The position numbers and the translations under genes were made by a program. 33,509 nt of DNA, taken from an uncultured Eubacteriales bacterium. GTDB lineage: Bacteria > Bacillota > Clostridia > Christensenellales > DTU072. The stretch spans positions 1 to 33,509 of the forward strand of contig CACXFJ010000116.1 in assembly GCA_902766965.1 (NCBI GenBank), given 5' to 3'. The first letter of the stretch is position 1; the number at the start of each line of letters is the position of its first letter. Of the stretch, positions 5,523 through 26,734 are shown piece after piece. A model generated the notes under the pieces. That model was not told the origin of the DNA. It searched no databases and saw only the letters and a program-made list of their open reading frames with translations.

Positions 5523-5560
5523 AAATATATATTATAAAAGGCTTGTCCTTCGGAAGGGAA

Positions 5561-8500
5561 ATGAAGAAAAAAGTTTTATTTGTAATCCTCATACTTTTGA
5601 TAGCCGTGTCCGCCGTCGCTTGTTCGGCGGAAATCGAGTATAGAAAACCTTACGTTACGGAAATCGCCGTCACGAACTTTTTCCACGCCGACGAATATAT
5701 AGCGGGCGATTCGCTCAATCTCGAAGGGACGAAACTTTTTGTAAGATATTCCGACTTGAAGACCGAAGAAATCGACCTCACCGCCGAAATGTGTTCGGAT
5801 TACGATATGAACGTACCGGAAATAGGAAAGGTCGTTACCGTAAACTACGGCGGCAAGACCACTTCGTTTAAGGTCAACGTTTACGACCTTACTTTCAGCT
5901 CGGTGGAATTGGCTTCCGCGCCTATCCGCACGCAGTACGTCGTAGGAGAAAACGTATCCGCCGACGGAGCTACGATAAACGTTCGTTACGAGGGGGGCAA
6001 GGTAGTCACCGTCAAAGTTACCGAAAAAATGCTCGAAGCGTACGATAATCAACGCGTAGGCGAACAAAGGATTTACATTTCGTATTACGGGTTCAAACTT
6101 TTCTTTACCGTTAATTTCGACGCGAAGACGGTAATAAAACTCGACGTTTTGCATTTGCCTAATCAAAACGCCGTTTTCAAAGGTTACGGCGACAGGATAG
6201 ACCTTACCGGACTCCGTCTCCGTCTTACTTACGACAACGGACTTATGCCGTCCAAAGAGATAGAAGAAGAGAAAAACAACGTAAAAGTCTATATCGACGA
6301 TTCCGAAGTCCGCACCGTTATGGCAAGGATAGCGTATATCCCCGCCGACTATCCGAAGACTATTTCTTATACTTACGGCGGAGCGGCTCTCGTGTCCACG
6401 GGCGATTACGTTTATCCCGATAAGGAAATCGCAAGCAATCAGCCTTTGGAAAACGTTCGTAGCAAAACTTACGGCAAAGTCACCGAAATTAAGGATAAAA
6501 CGATAGAAGTAAGCACCGTGGTTGAATACGAAGTCACTTCGCCCGAAGTGAAAGTCGGACAGATTTTGAAAGAAAACGAAGTCATCGGCAAAACGGGCGC
6601 GCGTAACGTTTTTAACGACGGCGGCAGCGGAATAATTCTTTCCGTCGGCGACGGCAAAGTAAAGATGCAGACGGCTCCCGTCGCGGCGTTCAACATCAAC
6701 GTTAAGGACAGAAGTTATAAGAGTATGGAAATAGACCGTTTCCCCGTGACCGCGAAGTACGGCAGCGACGTAAATTCCATTATTCAGGGCGACAAGCTCG
6801 ACCTCTCGTCGGGTAAAGTCAGAGTGTATTACGACAACGGAGAATCGCAAGTCTATTCGATGGACGACGCCCTCGTCAAGGTAATCAATTCCGACGACGA
6901 CCTGTTACGTTCGGAAATAGACGATTTGGAATTTACCACCGTCGACAACGTGACGGGAATAACCGCAGGCAGGTACGAACTTAAATACGGTCTTACTCAT
7001 CCTTACGGCGACGCCGTGTCGGTAGTGGCTACCGTGGTCGACGAAACGGGCAAGAGCGTTTACGTCCAGCAGAACAGATACGTTTCTCTCGAAGCGGGAC
7101 TTAACTACACCGTATCCCTTACCGCAACGTATAACGACGGCGGAAAAATAAAAGTAAGCGAATGCGTCTACTATCTCGCTACGATAGGGGCGGGCGTAAG
7201 ACGTAATCAGCTCGATATAACCGCCGCCGGCAAGCATAAACTTCTCGTAATATACGGCGGAGTGAAAGAAAACAACGTTAATATGATAGTCACCGTAATT
7301 CAGCGTTATCCCGTTCGGCTTAACATACTTACGGCAACCGATAATATCAACGGTAAGTCGTTCAGAAAGGGCGACGTAATTCCCATATCGACTTTGCAAT
7401 ATACGATTACCTACAACAACGGCGACGTAAGCGAACCTACCGGCGTAACCATGGATATGCTCGGCGAAGACTGCACTTTGACTTGCGATACCGTCGTCGA
7501 CAGAAAAGAGATTTATTTCCGTATACCGGGTACGGACGTCACGAGCGCGACGATGATTTGTAAAGTCGTTCCCATGCCCATCACTTCGATAGCTTTCGAC
7601 ACCTTGCCCGTGGATACTTTCCTGAAAGCGCAAGCGTCCGACACGGTGAACGTAGATTTGTCCGGAGGCGTACTCAGAGTTTATTACGAAAACGGCAGAG
7701 TGGAAATAATAGGTCAGTCGGGCGTTTTACTTAACGATTTAGTCGGCAACGCGAGCGGTCAGAGAATAGTTCTTTCCTATAATTCCGCCGATAAAAACTT
7801 TCTTTCGTTGGAAGAAATCGCCGCCGGCGTTCATTACGAAGCCACGCTTACCTACATAGACGCGGACGGAGCGCAAGCAGCTACGGCTCTCGATTATTAC
7901 ATAATTGACCCGGATAACGCGATTAGCGCAATCAAGGTAGTGTTAAGCACCGATTATTACAAGCGTAACTACGTTCAATGCGAAGATTGGGATTTGACGG
8001 GCGTAAATATGATAGTCACTTACGCTAAAAACGGTACGACGAGCCAGCCTATGCCCGTCGCCAAAGAAATGATTTACGACTCCACTACGGACAATATCGG
8101 CAAAGATATTCCCGTCAAGGTAAGGTATCTCGGCAAAGTGGACGCCACTACCTTTAAGATTAACGTCGAAGCCCGTATGGAAACCGCCGTCAGCGTGGTT
8201 AAGACGGGTAAAGATTTGTATTACAATACCGATAAAGAACCCGATTTTTCGGGATATAAATTCAGCCTTAGCTACAATGCGGGCGCGAGCGCGGAAATAA
8301 GCGGTCTTACCGATTTTGCCGGCGGCAAAAACAAGGCGGGTTGGTGGTACGAAATTTACGACGAAGACGGCTTGGAACTCACGCAGTTCAGAAGAGTGGG
8401 CAAGAAGATAGTCCGCATTTACCACACTACGGAAATTACCGACGGAGCAAACGCGGCTTACGTCCACGTTTATACCGAATTCCCGATAGAAGTGCTTGAA

Positions 8501-10351
8501 AAGACGATAAATATCGTATCCGTGGCGTACGAAGACGATTCGCTCGGAACGTGGAATAATTTAGGGAAAAAACTTAACGTCCTCGAAATCACCGCTCACG
8601 GGTGGGAACTTTTCCTCAACAAATACGACTCGTCGAAAGGTTATATAGACGATAAGTACCTTACCGTTAATTACGAAGACGGCACGGTAGGCTACGTTAA
8701 AATAACTTCCGATATGGTAATAGGTTACGACAAAGCCGATTTGACAAAGGGTTACAGAGCGGTTACCGTCAAGTATAAGACCTTTGCGGCGGAAGTCTGC
8801 GTACAGGTGCTTAACGCGGCGTTTACCGCGATAGCGGTGGAAAAAACTCCCGTGACCAACTTCATTGCCGGAAGCGAACTTACCAAAAACGGCGGTATCG
8901 TAAGATGCGTGTACGAAGTCACCGACGGCGACGGAACGAAATGGAACTTCTATAAGTATCTCGATATGGACGACGATAACGTAACTTGCAGCGGATTTAA
9001 CAGCAACATAAGCGAGAGCGTAGACAACGTGTCGCAGGATATTACCCTTAAATTCAGAGATAAGACCACCACTTATCAGATTATCGTCTACAACAAACAG
9101 GCGATAGAATTCAAGTATCAGAACACGATATTCTTCTACGGCAACACGAAAGCGGCGAGCGCGACCCCGTTGCAGAGAATACCCGAATTCGATTTGCCCG
9201 CGTCGTCCGATATTATTATGTGGTACGTAAGCAGCGAGTTCTTCATAAACGAAGAAGATTTCGAACAGTACCTTATCGATAACGGTGACGTAACCCGCGG
9301 CGAATTTATGTCGCTTATCTGCGTCGGCGGAGTCAAAAAATACGTCAACAGAAAGTATCTCCAAAGCGTTTATCCCGTAGAACCGCTCAAAAAAGGGTTC
9401 GATAGATTTATCGTAATGGAAGTCCTCGGCAATACGTATTACCGTCAGGAAAACTATTGCTTGCAAAAATATACCGTTATACCCAAGGTAATCGAAGTTA
9501 AGGTAGTGTCCTACACAGAAGACGCATACACGCTCGATTATACCGTCAGCGGCGAAAACAATTTGCCGAAAGTCATTTTGTATCTGTACGAACATCTCGA
9601 CGAGATAGTAGGTTCTTACGTCGGCAAAAACGGCATAACTTCCATAGAAATGCTCAGCCCGAACAAGAACTTCTTCCGTATCGGTATATTCGTAGCCGGC
9701 AGTTTCACCGACGTGGATTTGTTGGACGGAATATTCGCCGCGATTACGAAAAAATGCAACGAATATCTGCAATCCACGAGCGTAAGCGCAAACGTAAGCA
9801 AAAAACGCAAAGGCATAAACGTGGGCGAATACAACGGTATCAACCCCGAATACGTATCCTATCGCTTGTCCGCGGGCGAAACGCTCACCCTTAACGGTAT
9901 TCTCGAATTGCTCGAAGGCAGTCCGGAACTCAAAAATTACGATTATTCCACGGGATTGTACGACGTAGCGGTAGGCACGTTGAAGCACGGCGAAGACCAC
10001 TACACCATCGACTTTACGAGCGGTAAATATAAAGTTCTTACGAGAGCGATAGACGAGTACGCTTGCACGGGGAATTGGGATAAGAATACGAATACGCTTA
10101 CCGTATCCCTTGCCGACTACCTCGCGCGCGGAGTATCGATGTACGTCGTCAATACTTCCGACAAACAGTCGAGAGAGATAGGCGAAGACGAGTTCTCGTA
10201 CTATACCGCCGCCGATATGAGCGACGGAACCAAACTTACCGAGAAACCTTCGACAGCGGGTACTTATTACGTCAAAGTGGCAGCGGACGATAGTTTCAGT
10301 ATGAACGGAACCAACGTAAAGATAACGTTTACGTTAATAATAACAGAGTAA
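5561..10351 (+). CDS. Giant lipoprotein with about ten bacterial Ig-like (Big_3-type) repeats
   Basis: The 1596-residue protein starts with KKK, a hydrophobic stretch and LLIAVSAVACSA, a lipoprotein signal with a slightly unusual lipobox (A at -3). The ATG at 5561 is chosen because GGAAGGGAA precedes it; the frame is open to a TTG at 5543. About ten repeats follow the plan of group 3 bacterial Ig-like domains: a hydrophobic start, YxxGDxLxLxGxxLxVxY, an acidic stretch, GxxxVxVxYxGKxxxFxVxV. Examples begin at approximate residues 30, 110, 190, 385, 590, 680, 790, 885, 985 and 1085. Residues of about 295-378 are unlike the repeats, and the C-terminal 450 residues are more divergent. No LPxTG or S-layer motif is seen, so it is probably anchored by lipid on the outer face of the membrane. 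Its role is unknown; adhesion or surface scaffolding is possible. Confidence 0.85.
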   Translation: MKKKVLFVILILLIAVSAVACSAEIEYRKPYVTEIAVTNFFHADEYIAGDSLNLEGTKLFVRYSDLKTEEIDLTAEMCSDYDMNVPEIGKVVTVNYGGKTTSFKVNVYDLTFSSVELASAPIRTQYVVGENVSADGATINVRYEGGKVVTVKVTEKMLEAYDNQRVGEQRIYISYYGFKLFFTVNFDAKTVIKLDVLHLPNQNAVFKGYGDRIDLTGLRLRLTYDNGLMPSKEIEEEKNNVKVYIDDSEVRTVMARIAYIPADYPKTISYTYGGAALVSTGDYVYPDKEIASNQPLENVRSKTYGKVTEIKDKTIEVSTVVEYEVTSPEVKVGQILKENEVIGKTGARNVFNDGGSGIILSVGDGKVKMQTAPVAAFNINVKDRSYKSMEIDRFPVTAKYGSDVNSIIQGDKLDLSSGKVRVYYDNGESQVYSMDDALVKVINSDDDLLRSEIDDLEFTTVDNVTGITAGRYELKYGLTHPYGDAVSVVATVVDETGKSVYVQQNRYVSLEAGLNYTVSLTATYNDGGKIKVSECVYYLATIGAGVRRNQLDITAAGKHKLLVIYGGVKENNVNMIVTVIQRYPVRLNILTATDNINGKSFRKGDVIPISTLQYTITYNNGDVSEPTGVTMDMLGEDCTLTCDTVVDRKEIYFRIPGTDVTSATMICKVVPMPITSIAFDTLPVDTFLKAQASDTVNVDLSGGVLRVYYENGRVEIIGQSGVLLNDLVGNASGQRIVLSYNSADKNFLSLEEIAAGVHYEATLTYIDADGAQAATALDYYIIDPDNAISAIKVVLSTDYYKRNYVQCEDWDLTGVNMIVTYAKNGTTSQPMPVAKEMIYDSTTDNIGKDIPVKVRYLGKVDATTFKINVEARMETAVSVVKTGKDLYYNTDKEPDFSGYKFSLSYNAGASAEISGLTDFAGGKNKAGWWYEIYDEDGLELTQFRRVGKKIVRIYHTTEITDGANAAYVHVYTEFPIEVLEKTINIVSVAYEDDSLGTWNNLGKKLNVLEITAHGWELFLNKYDSSKGYIDDKYLTVNYEDGTVGYVKITSDMVIGYDKADLTKGYRAVTVKYKTFAAEVCVQVLNAAFTAIAVEKTPVTNFIAGSELTKNGGIVRCVYEVTDGDGTKWNFYKYLDMDDDNVTCSGFNSNISESVDNVSQDITLKFRDKTTTYQIIVYNKQAIEFKYQNTIFFYGNTKAASATPLQRIPEFDLPASSDIIMWYVSSEFFINEEDFEQYLIDNGDVTRGEFMSLICVGGVKKYVNRKYLQSVYPVEPLKKGFDRFIVMEVLGNTYYRQENYCLQKYTVIPKVIEVKVVSYTEDAYTLDYTVSGENNLPKVILYLYEHLDEIVGSYVGKNGITSIEMLSPNKNFFRIGIFVAGSFTDVDLLDGIFAAITKKCNEYLQSTSVSANVSKKRKGINVGEYNGINPEYVSYRLSAGETLTLNGILELLEGSPELKNYDYSTGLYDVAVGTLKHGEDHYTIDFTSGKYKVLTRAIDEYACTGNWDKNTNTLTVSLADYLARGVSMYVVNTSDKQSREIGEDEFSYYTAADMSDGTKLTEKPSTAGTYYVKVAADDSFSMNGTNVKITFTLIITE

Positions 10352-16602: not shown

Positions 16603-19600
16603 ATGAAAGAATTCGTACATTTGCACAATCATACCGAATACAGTCTTCTCGACGGTTGTACGAGAGTGGAAAAACTCGTTCAGGAAGCGAAAGCGCAGGG
16701 AGCGAGAGCCGTTGCCATTACCGACCACGGCAATATGTACGGCGCGATTAAGTTCTATAAAGCCTGCGAAAAACACAAAATAAAACCGATTGTAGGTTGC
16801 GAATTCTACGTTGCGGACGATTTGAACGCAAAAAACAAAGAGCATAACGCCCGTTATCACCTTATTTTGCTCGCAAAGAATTTACACGGTTTCCACAATC
16901 TTATGAAACTTTCGAGCGTCGGCTACGTCGACGGGTTTTACGACAGACCGAGAATAGACTATGAGGTTCTTAAACAATATTCCTCCGACCTTATCTGCCT
17001 CAGCGGTTGCGTCGCCGGGGGAGTGAGCAGACGGCTTAACGATATGACGCTCGACGACCCGTACGGAGAAGCGTTGGCGTACGCGAAAAAAACGCAGGAA
17101 CTTTTTGCCGAGGGCGATTATTACATAGAAATCCAAAACCATTTTCTTAAAGAAGAATTGCACGCCCTGCCGCTACTCAGAAAAATTGCGAAAGAGATAG
17201 GGGCAAAAACCGTCGCCACTAACGACTTACACTACCTTTATAAGTCCGACGCGAAAGCGCACGACATTCTTTTGTGTATTCAGACGGCGAAAGACTACGA
17301 CGACCCCAACCGTTTTCGTTTCCCGAACGACGAATTCTACTACAAGACCTACGACGAAATGTTGGCGGTTATCGGTGAAGAAGAATCGCTCGACAACACT
17401 CTCGAAGTCGCCGATAAAATAAACCTCGTTATACCGTTCCATCAGTATACGATACCGTATTACCAACCGCAGGAAGGCTACGCCGAAGACGCCGGGTGGT
17501 GTTCCAAGTTGCACGAAAGACGGGTTTCGGCGTATAACGGAACTACGGTAAGCGTAAAATACGACGATTGCAACCCGTTCTATATGGCGGCGGGAGATTT
17601 CGGCGACGTAAGCAAGCTCTCCAAACATACGGCTTTGAAAGCGTTGGACGCGGTAGTGGCTTCTTTCAGCAACGTCGGCAGTCAGTTCTCGAAATTTTTA
17701 AGTAACTTCGCAATACCGACCGACGGAAAAGAGTTTTATCCCGCGGTCGAAGGGGAAGCCGTCGAAGATTACAAAACCTTCGATAAAATCGCAAAAGAAC
17801 TCTACAATCACGCCCTTTCGGAATTTACGAAATACAAACCCGCAGATATCGAAAGCACTGCGGTGATAGGCTTGAATTATCCGTACGCAATGACTTTCAG
17901 CCCCGAAGTAAGTTCTCACCGCGCCGATTTACTTACCGTTGCGGCGCACCTTTTCGGCTTTAATTCGGCAGACGAATTCGAAAACTACGCAAAAAAACTC
18001 GTTGATATTTACTCGGAGTACAGAAAAAATCCCGAAAATTGCAGCTCGGCTTGGGAAAACGGCTGTTTCCTTACGGACAACGGCACTTTCGTGTTCCCGG
18101 TGGCGTTTACGAACGAATTTTCCGACGTGGTAATAACGTATATGTTTTTGGACGTCGAAGGAAGATTATCTTTATGGATACACGACGTTAACGCTGCATT
18201 AAGAGCTACTAATTTCGACGCGGTTTACCATTCGGGGAATATAACGAACAGTCTGTATTGTAAAAACGTTCTTTTCGTAGTCGGCGGAGCGGACGCGGAA
18301 TATCTCCGCAACATGGCGTATAAAGGACTTGTAGACCGTTACGGCGAAATAACGCCCGACATTAAAAAGAGAGCCGAAGACGAATTACAGACCATCATAT
18401 CGATGGGTTTCGCGTCGTACTATCTCATAGTTTGGGACTTTATCAACTACGCAAAAAGCCACGGTATTCCTGTAGGTGCGGGGCGTGGTAGCGGCGTAGG
18501 GAGTATAATTGCTTACGCCGTAAGAATAACCAACGTAGACCCGTTGAAGTACGACCTTATATTCGAGCGTTTCTTAAACTCTTCCCGTCAGAGTATGCCC
18601 GACTTCGACGTAGACTTCTGTTCCGACAGAAGAGAAGAAGTAATAGAGTACGTCCGCGAAAAATACGGTTACGACCACGTTACGCAGATAATAACCTTCG
18701 GTAAAATGAAGAAAAAGAACGCGATTAAAAACGTGTGCCGCGTCTTCAAAATACCTTTTGCCGAAAGTAACGCGCTCGTAAAAAACATCACCGACAACGA
18801 TAAGAAAGTTCATATCCCGAACCTGCTTGACCCGAACGACGTTCACGCCGTGCCGGAACTTATCGAAATGTACGCTAACGACACCTATAAAGAAATTTTC
18901 GACATAGCCATTCAGCTGGAAGACCTGCCTAAGGACAGAGGCAAGCACGCCGCGGGCGTAATTATTTGTCCGTATCCCGTCAGCGAGAAAGTGCCTTTGT
19001 CAAGGAACGGCGAAGATATAACCACTCAGTTCGATATGACGGAATGTGAGGAGTTAGGGTTACTGAAAATGGACTTTTTGGCACTCAAAACTCTTACGGA
19101 TATAAAAATGGCGCAGGACTTCGTCGAGAAGTACGAAGGGGTTAAGGTAAGTTTCGACAAATTAGGGTACGAAGACAAGGAAGTCTATCAGATGATAGGC
19201 AGCGGCGAGACCGACACCGTGTTCCAGCTCGAAAGCGGCGGAATGAAAGGGTTTATGAAGCAGTTAAAACCTACTCTTCTCGAAGAAATCATAGCAGGAG
19301 TGTCGCTGTACCGTCCCGGTCCTATGGCGTACGTCCCCGCGTACGTATATAACAAACAGCACCAGTCGGAGATAGACTATCGTCACCCGCTTTTAGAGCC
19401 TATATTGAAAAGCACTTACGGTATAATCGTGTATCAGGAGCAGGCGATGAGAATTACGCAGCACCTTGCGGGATACACCCTTAACGAAGCCGACAACTTC
19501 CGTAAGTTCATATCGAAAAAGAAAGTGGAAGAAATACCAAAACATAGGGCGAAGTTCGTAAGCGGCTGTATAGCGAAAGGCATAGACGAAGGGTTCGCGT

Positions 19601-20910
19601 TAAAACTGTGGGACGAACTCGAAGCCTTCGGTAACTACGCGTTCAATAAGTCGCACGCCGCGGCGTACGCCGTCCTTACTTACCAGACCGCTTTTTATAA
19701 GCATTATTATCCCGTCGAGTACCTTTCCGCAGTGTTGAATAACCGCTTGGGAAGCCCCGACGACACCACTAAATACCTTAAACTCATCAAGGATATGGGA
19801 ATAAAACTTCTGCCCCCCGACATTAACGAGTCGGAAGGGCTGTTCCTACCCGAAAACGGCGGTATCCGTTACGGTTTGGTCTGTATAAAGAACGTCGGTA
19901 AAGGAGCTATCGACGGCGTGGTCAAGGAAAGAAAGCAGGGCGGCAAGTTTACGAGTTTTTCCGACTTTGCGAGAAGAGTGCCTATGGACGCTCTTAACAG
20001 AAGAATGATAGAGTGCCTTATTAAAGGCGGAGCTTTCGATTGCTTCGGACATAACAGAAGCACTCTTATGGCAAACTATGAAAATATCCTTGCGAGAGAG
20101 ATTAAGTCGAAAGAGCTTTTAGACGGCGGACAAATGTTCTTCGATTTTATGTTGGAAGACGACTATAAGTACACCGAAGTCAAAGAAAACAGGCGAGTAA
20201 AACTTATGGACGAGAAAGAAGTTCTCGGCAGATACCTTTCGGGTCACCCGCTCGACGGCTACGAAGAGGAATTCAAAGAGTTTAATTTCGACACCTCGAA
20301 AATGCTCCCCGTTAAGACGGAAGACGTCGAGGAGGACGTCAACGACGAAGAGGGCGGAGAGGAAAAGTCCGACGTGTATCAGGTAAACAACGGCGACAGA
20401 GTGTATTTCGGAGGCTTGCTTTCGGGAGTAACGATAAAAACTTCGCAAAAGACCGGCAAGAAGTGGGGATACGCCACGATAGAGGATATGGCGGGCAGTA
20501 CGGAAATCGTATTTTACGCCCGCGCGCTCGAACAGTACAAACCCCTTTTGGTAGACGACGCTCTCGTGAGAATAAAAGGCAAGATAAATATCGGAGCCGA
20601 CGGAATTCCGAAAATCGAAGTTCAGTCGGTATCGCAATGGGCGTTGCAAGAGAAAGAGAGCTTCGTCGATAACAGAACGCTCTGTATCCGCATAGAGAAC
20701 GATATAAACCTTTTTGAAAAAGTGAGAGCTTTGCTCGAACGGAATAAGGGTGCGGGAAGTAACGTTATCATTCAGGTGGATACCTATGAAGACGGACAGG
20801 TGAAGAAAGAAGGCTATCGATTGCCGTACACCGTCGCTAACCCGGATTCGCTTAAATCCACCCTTATCGGTATGGTCGGGTACAACAACGTCAAGATTAA
20901 GGAAGACTGA
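16603..20910 (+). CDS. dnaE: DNA polymerase III alpha subunit with a large insertion
   Basis: DnaE is the catalytic subunit of a bacterial replicative C-family polymerase. Order of parts: PHP domain (VHLHNHTEYSLLDG, AITDHGNMYG, NDLHYL; metal ligands look kept), an insertion of about 266 residues, palm with catalytic D667 and D669 in MPDFDVDF and a third D824 in KMDFLAL, fingers (PKDRGKHAAGV, YRPGPMAYVP), HhH region, a probable clamp-binding QMFFDF at Q1177, an OB fold (VYFGGLLSGVTIK) and a C-terminal domain. At 1435 residues it exceeds the usual 1150-1170. E. coli D401 lines up with D667, which gives the net insertion size. AAAGGA precedes the ATG, 24 bases after whiA. Its terminator lies inside the converging gene. 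Confidence 0.96.
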   Translation: MKEFVHLHNHTEYSLLDGCTRVEKLVQEAKAQGARAVAITDHGNMYGAIKFYKACEKHKIKPIVGCEFYVADDLNAKNKEHNARYHLILLAKNLHGFHNLMKLSSVGYVDGFYDRPRIDYEVLKQYSSDLICLSGCVAGGVSRRLNDMTLDDPYGEALAYAKKTQELFAEGDYYIEIQNHFLKEELHALPLLRKIAKEIGAKTVATNDLHYLYKSDAKAHDILLCIQTAKDYDDPNRFRFPNDEFYYKTYDEMLAVIGEEESLDNTLEVADKINLVIPFHQYTIPYYQPQEGYAEDAGWCSKLHERRVSAYNGTTVSVKYDDCNPFYMAAGDFGDVSKLSKHTALKALDAVVASFSNVGSQFSKFLSNFAIPTDGKEFYPAVEGEAVEDYKTFDKIAKELYNHALSEFTKYKPADIESTAVIGLNYPYAMTFSPEVSSHRADLLTVAAHLFGFNSADEFENYAKKLVDIYSEYRKNPENCSSAWENGCFLTDNGTFVFPVAFTNEFSDVVITYMFLDVEGRLSLWIHDVNAALRATNFDAVYHSGNITNSLYCKNVLFVVGGADAEYLRNMAYKGLVDRYGEITPDIKKRAEDELQTIISMGFASYYLIVWDFINYAKSHGIPVGAGRGSGVGSIIAYAVRITNVDPLKYDLIFERFLNSSRQSMPDFDVDFCSDRREEVIEYVREKYGYDHVTQIITFGKMKKKNAIKNVCRVFKIPFAESNALVKNITDNDKKVHIPNLLDPNDVHAVPELIEMYANDTYKEIFDIAIQLEDLPKDRGKHAAGVIICPYPVSEKVPLSRNGEDITTQFDMTECEELGLLKMDFLALKTLTDIKMAQDFVEKYEGVKVSFDKLGYEDKEVYQMIGSGETDTVFQLESGGMKGFMKQLKPTLLEEIIAGVSLYRPGPMAYVPAYVYNKQHQSEIDYRHPLLEPILKSTYGIIVYQEQAMRITQHLAGYTLNEADNFRKFISKKKVEEIPKHRAKFVSGCIAKGIDEGFALKLWDELEAFGNYAFNKSHAAAYAVLTYQTAFYKHYYPVEYLSAVLNNRLGSPDDTTKYLKLIKDMGIKLLPPDINESEGLFLPENGGIRYGLVCIKNVGKGAIDGVVKERKQGGKFTSFSDFARRVPMDALNRRMIECLIKGGAFDCFGHNRSTLMANYENILAREIKSKELLDGGQMFFDFMLEDDYKYTEVKENRRVKLMDEKEVLGRYLSGHPLDGYEEEFKEFNFDTSKMLPVKTEDVEEDVNDEEGGEEKSDVYQVNNGDRVYFGGLLSGVTIKTSQKTGKKWGYATIEDMAGSTEIVFYARALEQYKPLLVDDALVRIKGKINIGADGIPKIEVQSVSQWALQEKESFVDNRTLCIRIENDINLFEKVRALLERNKGAGSNVIIQVDTYEDGQVKKEGYRLPYTVANPDSLKSTLIGMVGYNNVKIKED
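17485..18291 (+). other. In-frame insertion domain of DnaE (about residues 295-563)
   Basis: Ordinary DnaE proteins read EGxxxxxYLRxLxxxGLxxRYG at the end of the PHP region. Here this string is split: QPQEGYAED stands before the segment and AEYLRNMAYKGLVDRYGE after it. The inserted part is rich in aromatic and acidic residues, alternates helical stretches (KLSKHTALKALDAVVASF, TFDKIAKELYNHALSEF, FENYAKKLVDIYSEY) with strand-rich ones (TFVFPVAFTNEFSDVVITYM), and holds five scattered cysteines. It has no intein splice signals and no stop codons, and codon use looks like the flanks. I recognise no domain. The edges are approximate to about ten residues. Confidence 0.8.
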
Positions 20911-24514: not shown

Positions 24515-24671
24515 AATACCTCCATATTGTGTTTTCGCCGAAAGATAAAAATACGGCGTATAGTACATTCTATGAAGTTGTTTACCGCAGGGTGTGACGC
24601 CCGAAAACGGTTTAAGGGAATTTTAATCTTTTTATTATTAAATAATAACGATAGGAAAAATTTACAAAACC

Positions 24672-24700
24672 GTGATTCTCAAAAAAATGTATGGTATAAT
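24672..24700 (+). promoter_or_regulatory. Extended -10 promoter of the surface protein gene
   Basis: TGG-TATAAT at 24692-24700 is a full extended -10 element. The -35 position (24672-24677, GTGATT) is weak, as is common with extended -10 promoters. A start near 24707 gives a leader of about 20 bases with CCGGGGA as ribosome binding site. The 213-base spacer to the divergent binding-protein gene holds no other gene or recognisable riboswitch. Confidence 0.6.
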
Positions 24701-24727
24701 ACTTGTGAATTTTTCCGGGGACTATAT

Positions 24728-26734
24728 ATGGATAAATTAAATATAAAAAGAAGTGTTTTAATTTTTAATATATTTTGCTTTCTCGTAGCAGCGGTTTTCG
24801 TCGCCGGACTTAACCTTTCCGCAGACGTCGGTTTCGCCGCCGATTTGCCGGAACCTACCGTAACCGCCGTAACCGATGCGTATTTTACCGACGGCGAAGT
24901 AAAGTATAACAGGGGCGATTATTCGGGAACTTACTCAAAAGACGTTGAAATAACCTTCTATTTAGGCTCGGCTTCCTACTATAAAATCGACGTAGACGTA
25001 GACGGCGTTATTACCGAAGGGATAAAGACCGCCGCGCCTTCCGACGGAAAAGTTTTGTATAAAGTCCGTCAGTCGGGAGTGGTGACGGCTACTCTTTACG
25101 CTTACGACGAGGGCGGAGCATTGTCAGGCTCGGTGTCGAAAACGGTTAAGAGCGACAACGTAGCCCCGGTAGTTCCGACGCATATTGGAATGGACAGATA
25201 TTATAAACCCGGTTCCGTATATAACGTAAACATAAACCTTAACGAAGTATCCGACCTTCACAGCGGAAGGGGAGATATTTATTACTCGTTGTCGACAGAT
25301 ACGGGTAATTTAATAAAAGTCACCGACTCCGACGCGGTAACTTTGAGCATTACAGATAAAACCATCGTTTACCTTTACGTTTTCGACAACGCGAAAAACA
25401 GCGTAGTGGAAGAATACGTTTTCGATAAATTCGACGGAACCGCTCCCGCAAAACCCGAAATCACCGTCACGCCTATATCCGACTTGACGAAAACCAACGG
25501 ATATACGAGCGGGTACGAAGTGGAAATAAACTACGGTTTCGATACCGAAAGCGGAATTAAGAACAGGTTTTATTTCGTCAACGACGCAAAGAGCGAATAT
25601 AACGGCGCGTTTACGCTCGACAGAGCGGCGGAATACAAAATAAGAGCTTACAGCTCGGACGCCTGCGGCAACATATCGGAAGAAACTTCTGTAAAAATTG
25701 CGGCGGACGCTTTCGACAACGACGCTCCGAGCATAATTAACGCTACCGCTATCTACGACCTAACGCAGGAAAAACCCGTAAAATTAAGGGTTGAAGCGAG
25801 AGATACGCAGAGCGGAATAAAAGAGATTTCCGCGGCGGGCGGCGAAGTTTTCGCCGAATCTTCGGCAGGAGTGTACGAACTTTATTTCGATTGCTACGGC
25901 GTGCCGTCGGTAGTGATAAACGCAACCGACAAAGTGGGCAACGTATCTTTTCAGCATGTCGCTTTCAATTATTTCAACGATAAAAACTTTTCCGACAAAC
26001 TGAAATTCTATTCGGCGTCTTACCGCAACGCCGATTTTTCCGAATATACCGAAAACGCCGTCGAAAAAATAAACGCGGCTTTCGCAAAGCTCAACGTCCT
26101 CGTCTCTTCAGACCTTACCACGAGCGAAGATTTCGACAGCTGTTTTAAGGAAATAGACGAACTTATGAGCGGAAAGGGTAGTTTTTCTTACGTTATCGAA
26201 AAGGCTCCGACTTATCTGTCGGGAGCTTTGACGTATACGGTAAACGGCGGCGATTTCGACGGGTACAAAAAGGGAGACGAAATAAAACTTACTTTCGCCT
26301 CCGTCGGCAACTCCGACGATTTTCTTAAAAACAGCGGTTTCGACAAAGGTTTTTGCGAAAACTTTGCTCTTAACGTCTTTTATAACGGAGAACTGCAAAA
26401 AAGTTTATCGAACGGACTGAAAATAAGCATGAATATGCCCGTAGGGTTTTACGAAAGGAATTACGCTTTGTTTAACGCCGACACGGGAGAAAAAGTTGAG
26501 ATAAAACTCATCAACAACAAGATAGAGTTTACCCTTACGGAAAGCGGAAATTACAGTTTGGTAATAAGCGGCGCGTCCACGCCGACGACGAACGTTTCCG
26601 CAAGTAAAGGCGTGACGGTATTCGGTCACAGATTAAGCCTTGCCGCATTTTTAGGCACGGTGATAGGGGGAGTAGTCGTAGCCGCCGCGGGGATAGCCGT
26701 CGTAATAATAGTTTTTAAGAAAAGAGGGAGATAA
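24728..26734 (+). CDS. Single-pass surface protein with Ig-like repeats
   Basis: The 668-residue protein starts with a basic stretch and a long hydrophobic signal (SVLIFNIFCFLVAAVFVAGL, cleavage possible after GFA). The ATG at 24728 is preferred over upstream in-frame starts because the promoter and CCGGGGA lie directly before it. The body has several beta-rich Ig-like units of about 90 residues, with phrases such as YKIRAYSSDACGNISEET and VVINATDKVGNVSF typical of bacterial surface Ig-like domains. The end is a threonine/serine linker, a transmembrane helix (AAFLGTVIGGVVVAAAGIAV) and a KKRGR stop-transfer tail, so the protein faces outward and is anchored by its C-terminus. Function unknown. 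The stop is three bases before yifB, so the two may be co-transcribed despite unrelated roles. Confidence 0.8.
   Translation: MDKLNIKRSVLIFNIFCFLVAAVFVAGLNLSADVGFAADLPEPTVTAVTDAYFTDGEVKYNRGDYSGTYSKDVEITFYLGSASYYKIDVDVDGVITEGIKTAAPSDGKVLYKVRQSGVVTATLYAYDEGGALSGSVSKTVKSDNVAPVVPTHIGMDRYYKPGSVYNVNINLNEVSDLHSGRGDIYYSLSTDTGNLIKVTDSDAVTLSITDKTIVYLYVFDNAKNSVVEEYVFDKFDGTAPAKPEITVTPISDLTKTNGYTSGYEVEINYGFDTESGIKNRFYFVNDAKSEYNGAFTLDRAAEYKIRAYSSDACGNISEETSVKIAADAFDNDAPSIINATAIYDLTQEKPVKLRVEARDTQSGIKEISAAGGEVFAESSAGVYELYFDCYGVPSVVINATDKVGNVSFQHVAFNYFNDKNFSDKLKFYSASYRNADFSEYTENAVEKINAAFAKLNVLVSSDLTTSEDFDSCFKEIDELMSGKGSFSYVIEKAPTYLSGALTYTVNGGDFDGYKKGDEIKLTFASVGNSDDFLKNSGFDKGFCENFALNVFYNGELQKSLSNGLKISMNMPVGFYERNYALFNADTGEKVEIKLINNKIEFTLTESGNYSLVISGASTPTTNVSASKGVTVFGHRLSLAAFLGTVIGGVVVAAAGIAVVIIVFKKRGR

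Follow-up and report, generated by a model that had tools for sequence, protein, structure and literature searches.

The dnaE gene in the window, by which the complete analysed stretch of 33,509 nucleotides is meant, contains an additional domain of about 267 residues between its PHP and palm parts. This insert is probably one copy of an order-restricted domain that invades genes in frame, folds by itself and stays in the host protein. Complete units of the domain are present in unrelated proteins, where they have nearly constant ends, occupy length-variable loops or linkers and, in one case, interrupt another copy of the domain itself; for several of these proteins, empty orthologues exist.

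The host open reading frame (16603–20910, on the forward strand like all dnaE features given below) codes for 1435 amino acids and was assigned to DnaE by Pfam matches to the PHP, palm, fingers and HhH parts and by the intact motifs MPDFDVDF and KMDF. The PHP domain (residues 6–180; 16618–17142) was identified both by PF02811, with an E-value of 4e-58, and by motif comparison. The palm/NTPase part (DAEYLRNMAYKGL, with MPDFDVDF intact; 18298–19083), matched by PF07733 with an E-value of 1.9e-92, follows right after the insert. The NCBIfam DnaE models match in two stretches, one reaching to the end of the PHP part and the other starting at residue 563–566, so that residues ~296–563 are left uncovered. 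This gap corresponds to the inserted domain at residues 297–563 (AGWCS...VVGGA; 17491–18291) and fits the extra domain of about 266 residues that the preliminary description had placed at 17485–18291 between PHP and palm. The displacement of the catalytic aspartates reported there was also found: MPDFDVDF of the palm begins at residue 665, giving D667 as the first catalytic aspartate, exactly 266 residues later than D401 of E. coli DnaE.

The GC content of the insert was determined to be 0.467, compared to 0.468/0.471 for the gene, its in-frame codon usage is like that of the gene, and it contains no stop codon. Together with an identity of 42–49% to homologues elsewhere, this argues that the insert is real coding sequence and not a product of chance. 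The genome is a draft of 141 contigs and the named relatives are metagenome-assembled, which would leave room for an assembly or binning artefact fusing two genes. However, both junctions lie in frame within one continuous open reading frame whose GC content and codon usage the insert matches, the closest homologue is just 49% identical and thus offers no source for a k-mer join, and the same pattern is replicated in other assemblies and hosts. An assembly join, which the preliminary description had named as an outcome that would refute it, was rejected on these grounds as extremely improbable.

DnaE is probably the sole replicative polymerase (PolIII alpha) of this genome, since PF07733 gave a single match in it and no PolC above the curated cut-off was identified in ten genomes of the genus, its own and those of nine congeners. 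Clostridia are said to pair PolC with DnaE1 (PMC3919608). Elsewhere in the window, on the same stretch as the housekeeping genes uvrC and dnaE, an open reading frame of 1602 amino acids with a TTG start (5543–10351) was identified, which has one Big_3 Ig-like domain as its sole Pfam match and probably codes for a large surface protein. Another open reading frame with a TTG start (24527–26734; 735 amino acids) has no Pfam match.

None of the other DnaE proteins detected in 58 related genomes carries the insert; they span the junction continuously, with congeners being 71–78% identical in the region. Relatives differ in the length of the linker between PHP and palm (PPKGMGYKDDADYL, PPKEFSDDAEYL, CPDGMKPDEYL), and the insert directly precedes the conserved [ED]YLRKxAY helix. 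The string EGxxxxYLRxLxxxGL, described before as a usual string interrupted by the insert, shows conservation only in its right part (...[ED]YLRKxAYxGL), whereas the 'xxxx' stretch that receives the insert is length-variable. A 5-bp direct repeat, GACGC, is present at the left (17488–17492) and right (18292–18296) junctions. A shared 5-mer was found in 41% of random zone pairs within the dnaE open reading frame; the repeat is thus at chance level and not significant as a possible target-site duplication.

The AlphaFold2 model of the domain, calculated from six sequences, has an alpha/beta fold with a pLDDT of 77.5 and a pTM of 0.82. A fold search of this model against PDB and BFVD gave no match worth naming; OXA-type/serine beta-lactamases recurred as a weak lead (a Foldseek E-value no better than 0.2 and VIA Z values not above 3.5), and the weak matches also included a sensor domain with a Z of 3.8. 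As the insert matches nothing in Pfam, NCBIfam or the PDB at the level of family or fold, its designation as an unrecognised domain was correct. For DnaE residues 1–1166 including the insert, a model with a pLDDT of 79 and a pTM of 0.70 was obtained, in which the stretches 291–348 (left junction and start of the domain) and 551–562 (right junction) are of low confidence, a loose alignment in these stretches being part of the reason. As the preliminary description had proposed, the predicted DnaE was compared with solved alpha subunits, and fold Z values of 41–48 were obtained. It superposes on the DNA-bound E. coli alpha subunit with a Z of 44.8 over 838 residues (rmsd 3.4 A) and on Thermus 4iqj with a Z of 48.4, in both cases across PHP, palm and fingers and with the insert looped out. 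The predicted first palm helix (562–580) starts immediately after the insert. By comparison with a DnaE homologue, the palm aspartates are intact and all nine expected PHP metal-binding positions, which are discussed in PMC3919608, are present. With the active-site residues in place and the predicted fold superposing on solved alpha subunits, nothing suggests that the insert breaks the polymerase.

A search with the insert alone identified matches in proteins as long as ~7,000 residues from the same genus and family. The unit of ~265 residues follows the pattern CS...YxDCN...IGxN...LFGF...NGxFVxP...VWxxD...LYCKNxLF or LYGRCxLF, and copies of the close subfamily are 42–49% identical. Its ends are nearly constant, lying usually 2–5 residues before the Cys-Ser pair and 5–8 residues after the final LF; the nested copy starts 7 residues before Cys-Ser. 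In DnaE, this pair is formed by residues 300–301 (17500–17505), near the left junction, and it is kept in nearly all copies. For the contig scans, the closer alignment set was used as seed, the broad alignment being unusable for this purpose. Of 396 genomes sampled from the order, 18 were found to carry the domain; the class sample gave a single other hit, again from the same order, and in the phylum sample the own genome was the only one with a hit. Judging from these samples, the domain is restricted to this bacterial order, and the named relatives are genomes from rumen, colon and Christensenella-type metagenomes. No second copy was identified in the own genome, even by profile search, so that a paralogue in this genome was rejected as the source. 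Viral contigs, phages and plasmids were also searched and gave no match, and a phage or plasmid origin was likewise rejected. One weak hit to a defence family, DUF3780, was obtained for 1 of 14 members.

Besides DnaE, the in-frame unit was identified in the DNA-repair enzyme AddB, an OppF/DppF-type ABC ATPase, a GH16 glycosidase, cyclophilin-type lipoproteins, GLUG adhesins and giant surface proteins and, once, within another copy of itself. These host proteins share neither function nor compartment, and several of them are extracellular. For DnaE, AddB and GH16, orthologues without the domain were identified, and the inserts lie in length-variable loops. In AddB, the insert is located between ...SLFPA and TEGLEH..., the flanks match TIGR02773, and empty orthologues with 51–57% identity are continuous across the insertion point. 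For the GH16 glycosidase, which is a lipoprotein, one common insertion site was found in at least seven filled loci, while three orthologues lack the domain and are 70–76% identical to the query; the junction reads RTEWRDATETEPAGVYSGAVRT in the empty form versus RTEQRGSRY-CSE...VTG-PEGVYSGALRT in the filled form. In the ABC ATPase, the domain is part of an N-terminal extension. In an open reading frame of 3,205 amino acids, an inner copy of 276 residues splits an outer one behind model position ~77, and removal of the inner copy joins the outer flanks into one complete match of 245 bits. In giant proteins of one relative, short tyrosine-rich modules (YY-rich, KPADWDTHYGSYFVRSGDEYV-like) are scattered and interrupt domain copies, which points to another, shorter kind of in-frame insert.

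A tree was calculated for 33 copies, in which those of one genus are dispersed. The DnaE copy is placed among copies of other genera and families, and its highest identity, 49%, is to a copy in another family of the order. For the inserts of the GH16 orthologues, in which domain and host enzyme have diverged in parallel, dN values of 0.31–0.58 and, where measurable, dS values of about 1.2–1.9 gave ratios of about 0.26–0.44, compared to about 0.1–0.26 for the host enzyme; all of these ratios are rough, with synonymous sites near saturation. By these estimates, the domain in GH16 orthologues is under purifying selection which is weaker than that on its host.

In the preliminary description, a lineage-specific functional module of DnaE was proposed, which at the PHP-palm junction would interact with DNA, with an exonuclease or with some other partner. 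Its location in the sole PolIII alpha identified in the genome, the intact frame with native-like codon usage and the purifying selection on the relatives sited in GH16 are in line with such a role. However, the same domain resides in unrelated and extracellular proteins from AddB to GLUG adhesins and inside itself, it is missing from all other detected DnaE proteins, congeners included, and the active sites and predicted fold of DnaE look unaffected, which makes a dedicated replisome module unlikely. An effect of the insert on PHP activity or partner binding is no more than a possibility. A self-excising protein element, which would cut itself out and ligate its host like an intein but with a different fold and chemistry, was judged slightly less likely still. 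The conserved Cys-Ser near the left junction and the conserved Cys near the right end, the in-frame insertion into a likely essential polymerase and the nesting of copies, as in self-splicing elements, would fit such an element. Protein splicing needs a C-terminal Asn followed by Cys, Ser or Thr. The right ends of the copies read ...YCKNVLFVTG or ...YGRCxLFE with no conserved Asn plus Cys/Ser/Thr at the junction, the N-terminal Cys is absent in 1 of 14 aligned copies, and no Hint, intein or LAGLIDADG match was obtained in Pfam or NCBIfam up to an E-value of 1, on which grounds an intein was rejected. Inteins favour catalytic motifs, whereas the insertions found here are in variable loops, and this argues against excision, because an excised element could occupy conserved motifs while a retained domain could not.

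A promiscuous surface-protein domain copied by illegitimate recombination, without being a genetic element, is the alternative that overlaps with the preferred reading, and it was considered improbable to a lesser degree than the two above. It would account for the location of most copies in surface or giant proteins, for the old and divergent state of the copies and for the absence of terminal repeats. The nearly constant ends of complete copies, the insertion of one copy into another and the independent insertions in cytosolic DnaE, AddB and ABC ATPase would, however, be unusual for surface domains that are shuffled. Still, repeated capture by ordinary illegitimate recombination, without a true element, would give a similar picture. 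At the other extreme, the domain might be a dedicated selfish element confined to the frames of other genes, a protein-level parasite that splices by a new chemistry or homes while folded in a host loop; this was regarded as doubtful, somewhat more so than the copied surface domain. No mobility gene is tied to the domain, and no recent movement was caught, as near-identical copies were not encountered, the best match being 49% identical. A transposon or MITE would be expected to have terminal inverted repeats and a target-site duplication. No terminal or large inverted repeats were found at the insert, and a palindromic or inverted-repeat element was rejected. A group I or II intron or a structured RNA was also rejected, with no Rfam match to the insert up to an E-value of 1 and an RNA fold z of +0.93, which is not unusual.

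For the preferred reading of a gene-invading domain that stays in its host, the following course can be proposed. The domain would fold independently as an alpha/beta unit and bulge from the host protein without being removed, so that the polymerase would keep working; its independent folding within a loop would explain why it is tolerated. Transfer from gene to gene and between species may occur by rare recombination or transposition-like events, with selection filtering frame, orientation and position so that only in-frame insertions located in loops would survive. Since the genome contains no second copy, the DnaE copy probably came from outside or from a donor gene that has been lost. The pattern of insertion, the integrity and the selective constraint were observed, whereas it is inferred that the mature protein keeps the domain, how the domain moves and that DnaE is not affected. 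The case shows a full-size globular domain planted in frame in unrelated cytosolic and extracellular proteins, among them the single PolIII alpha detected in a genome; such a way of making new proteins has hitherto been described chiefly for short Rickettsia peptides. DnaE, AddB and GH16, each with empty orthologues, provide natural and testable cases of domain insertion, and annotators could recognise such inserts rather than propose host-specific functions for them.

The exonuclease insertion in PolC is likewise a whole domain near PHP of a C-family polymerase (PMC3919608). However, it lies within PHP, belongs to the conserved enzymes of the replisome and serves as a hallmark of its polymerase family, whereas the DnaE insert is sporadic. 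PARCELs, which consist of tandem 25-residue repeats with DNA dyad symmetry, are also protein-coding units that have dispersed across genes and taxa, with surface lipoproteins as frequent carriers (PMC2996958); the insert described here differs as a single domain of ~265 residues without dyad symmetry. Inteins, including the cyanobacterial DnaE inteins, share the in-frame position in a DNA polymerase gene, the complete flanking host sequence and a Cys near the start, but differ in having a Hint domain and the terminal Asn and +1 nucleophile, whereas the present domain occupies variable loops and has copies in secreted proteins. Rickettsia palindromic elements (Ogata et al. 2000, 2002) are summarised in PMC10969869 as palindromes of ~150 bp that code for a short peptide. 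Like the domain in DnaE in the preferred reading, they are described there as lying in frame in many unrelated genes, being retained in the protein, being tolerated by the host structure and having a narrow host range. In comparison with these elements, the DnaE-type unit is, at ~804 bp, about five times longer, non-palindromic, a conserved globular domain and self-nesting, and an assignment to this class was rejected by palindrome and size. Among the known systems compared, the behaviour of the domain nevertheless appears to be closest to that of these in-frame protein-coding elements of Rickettsia.
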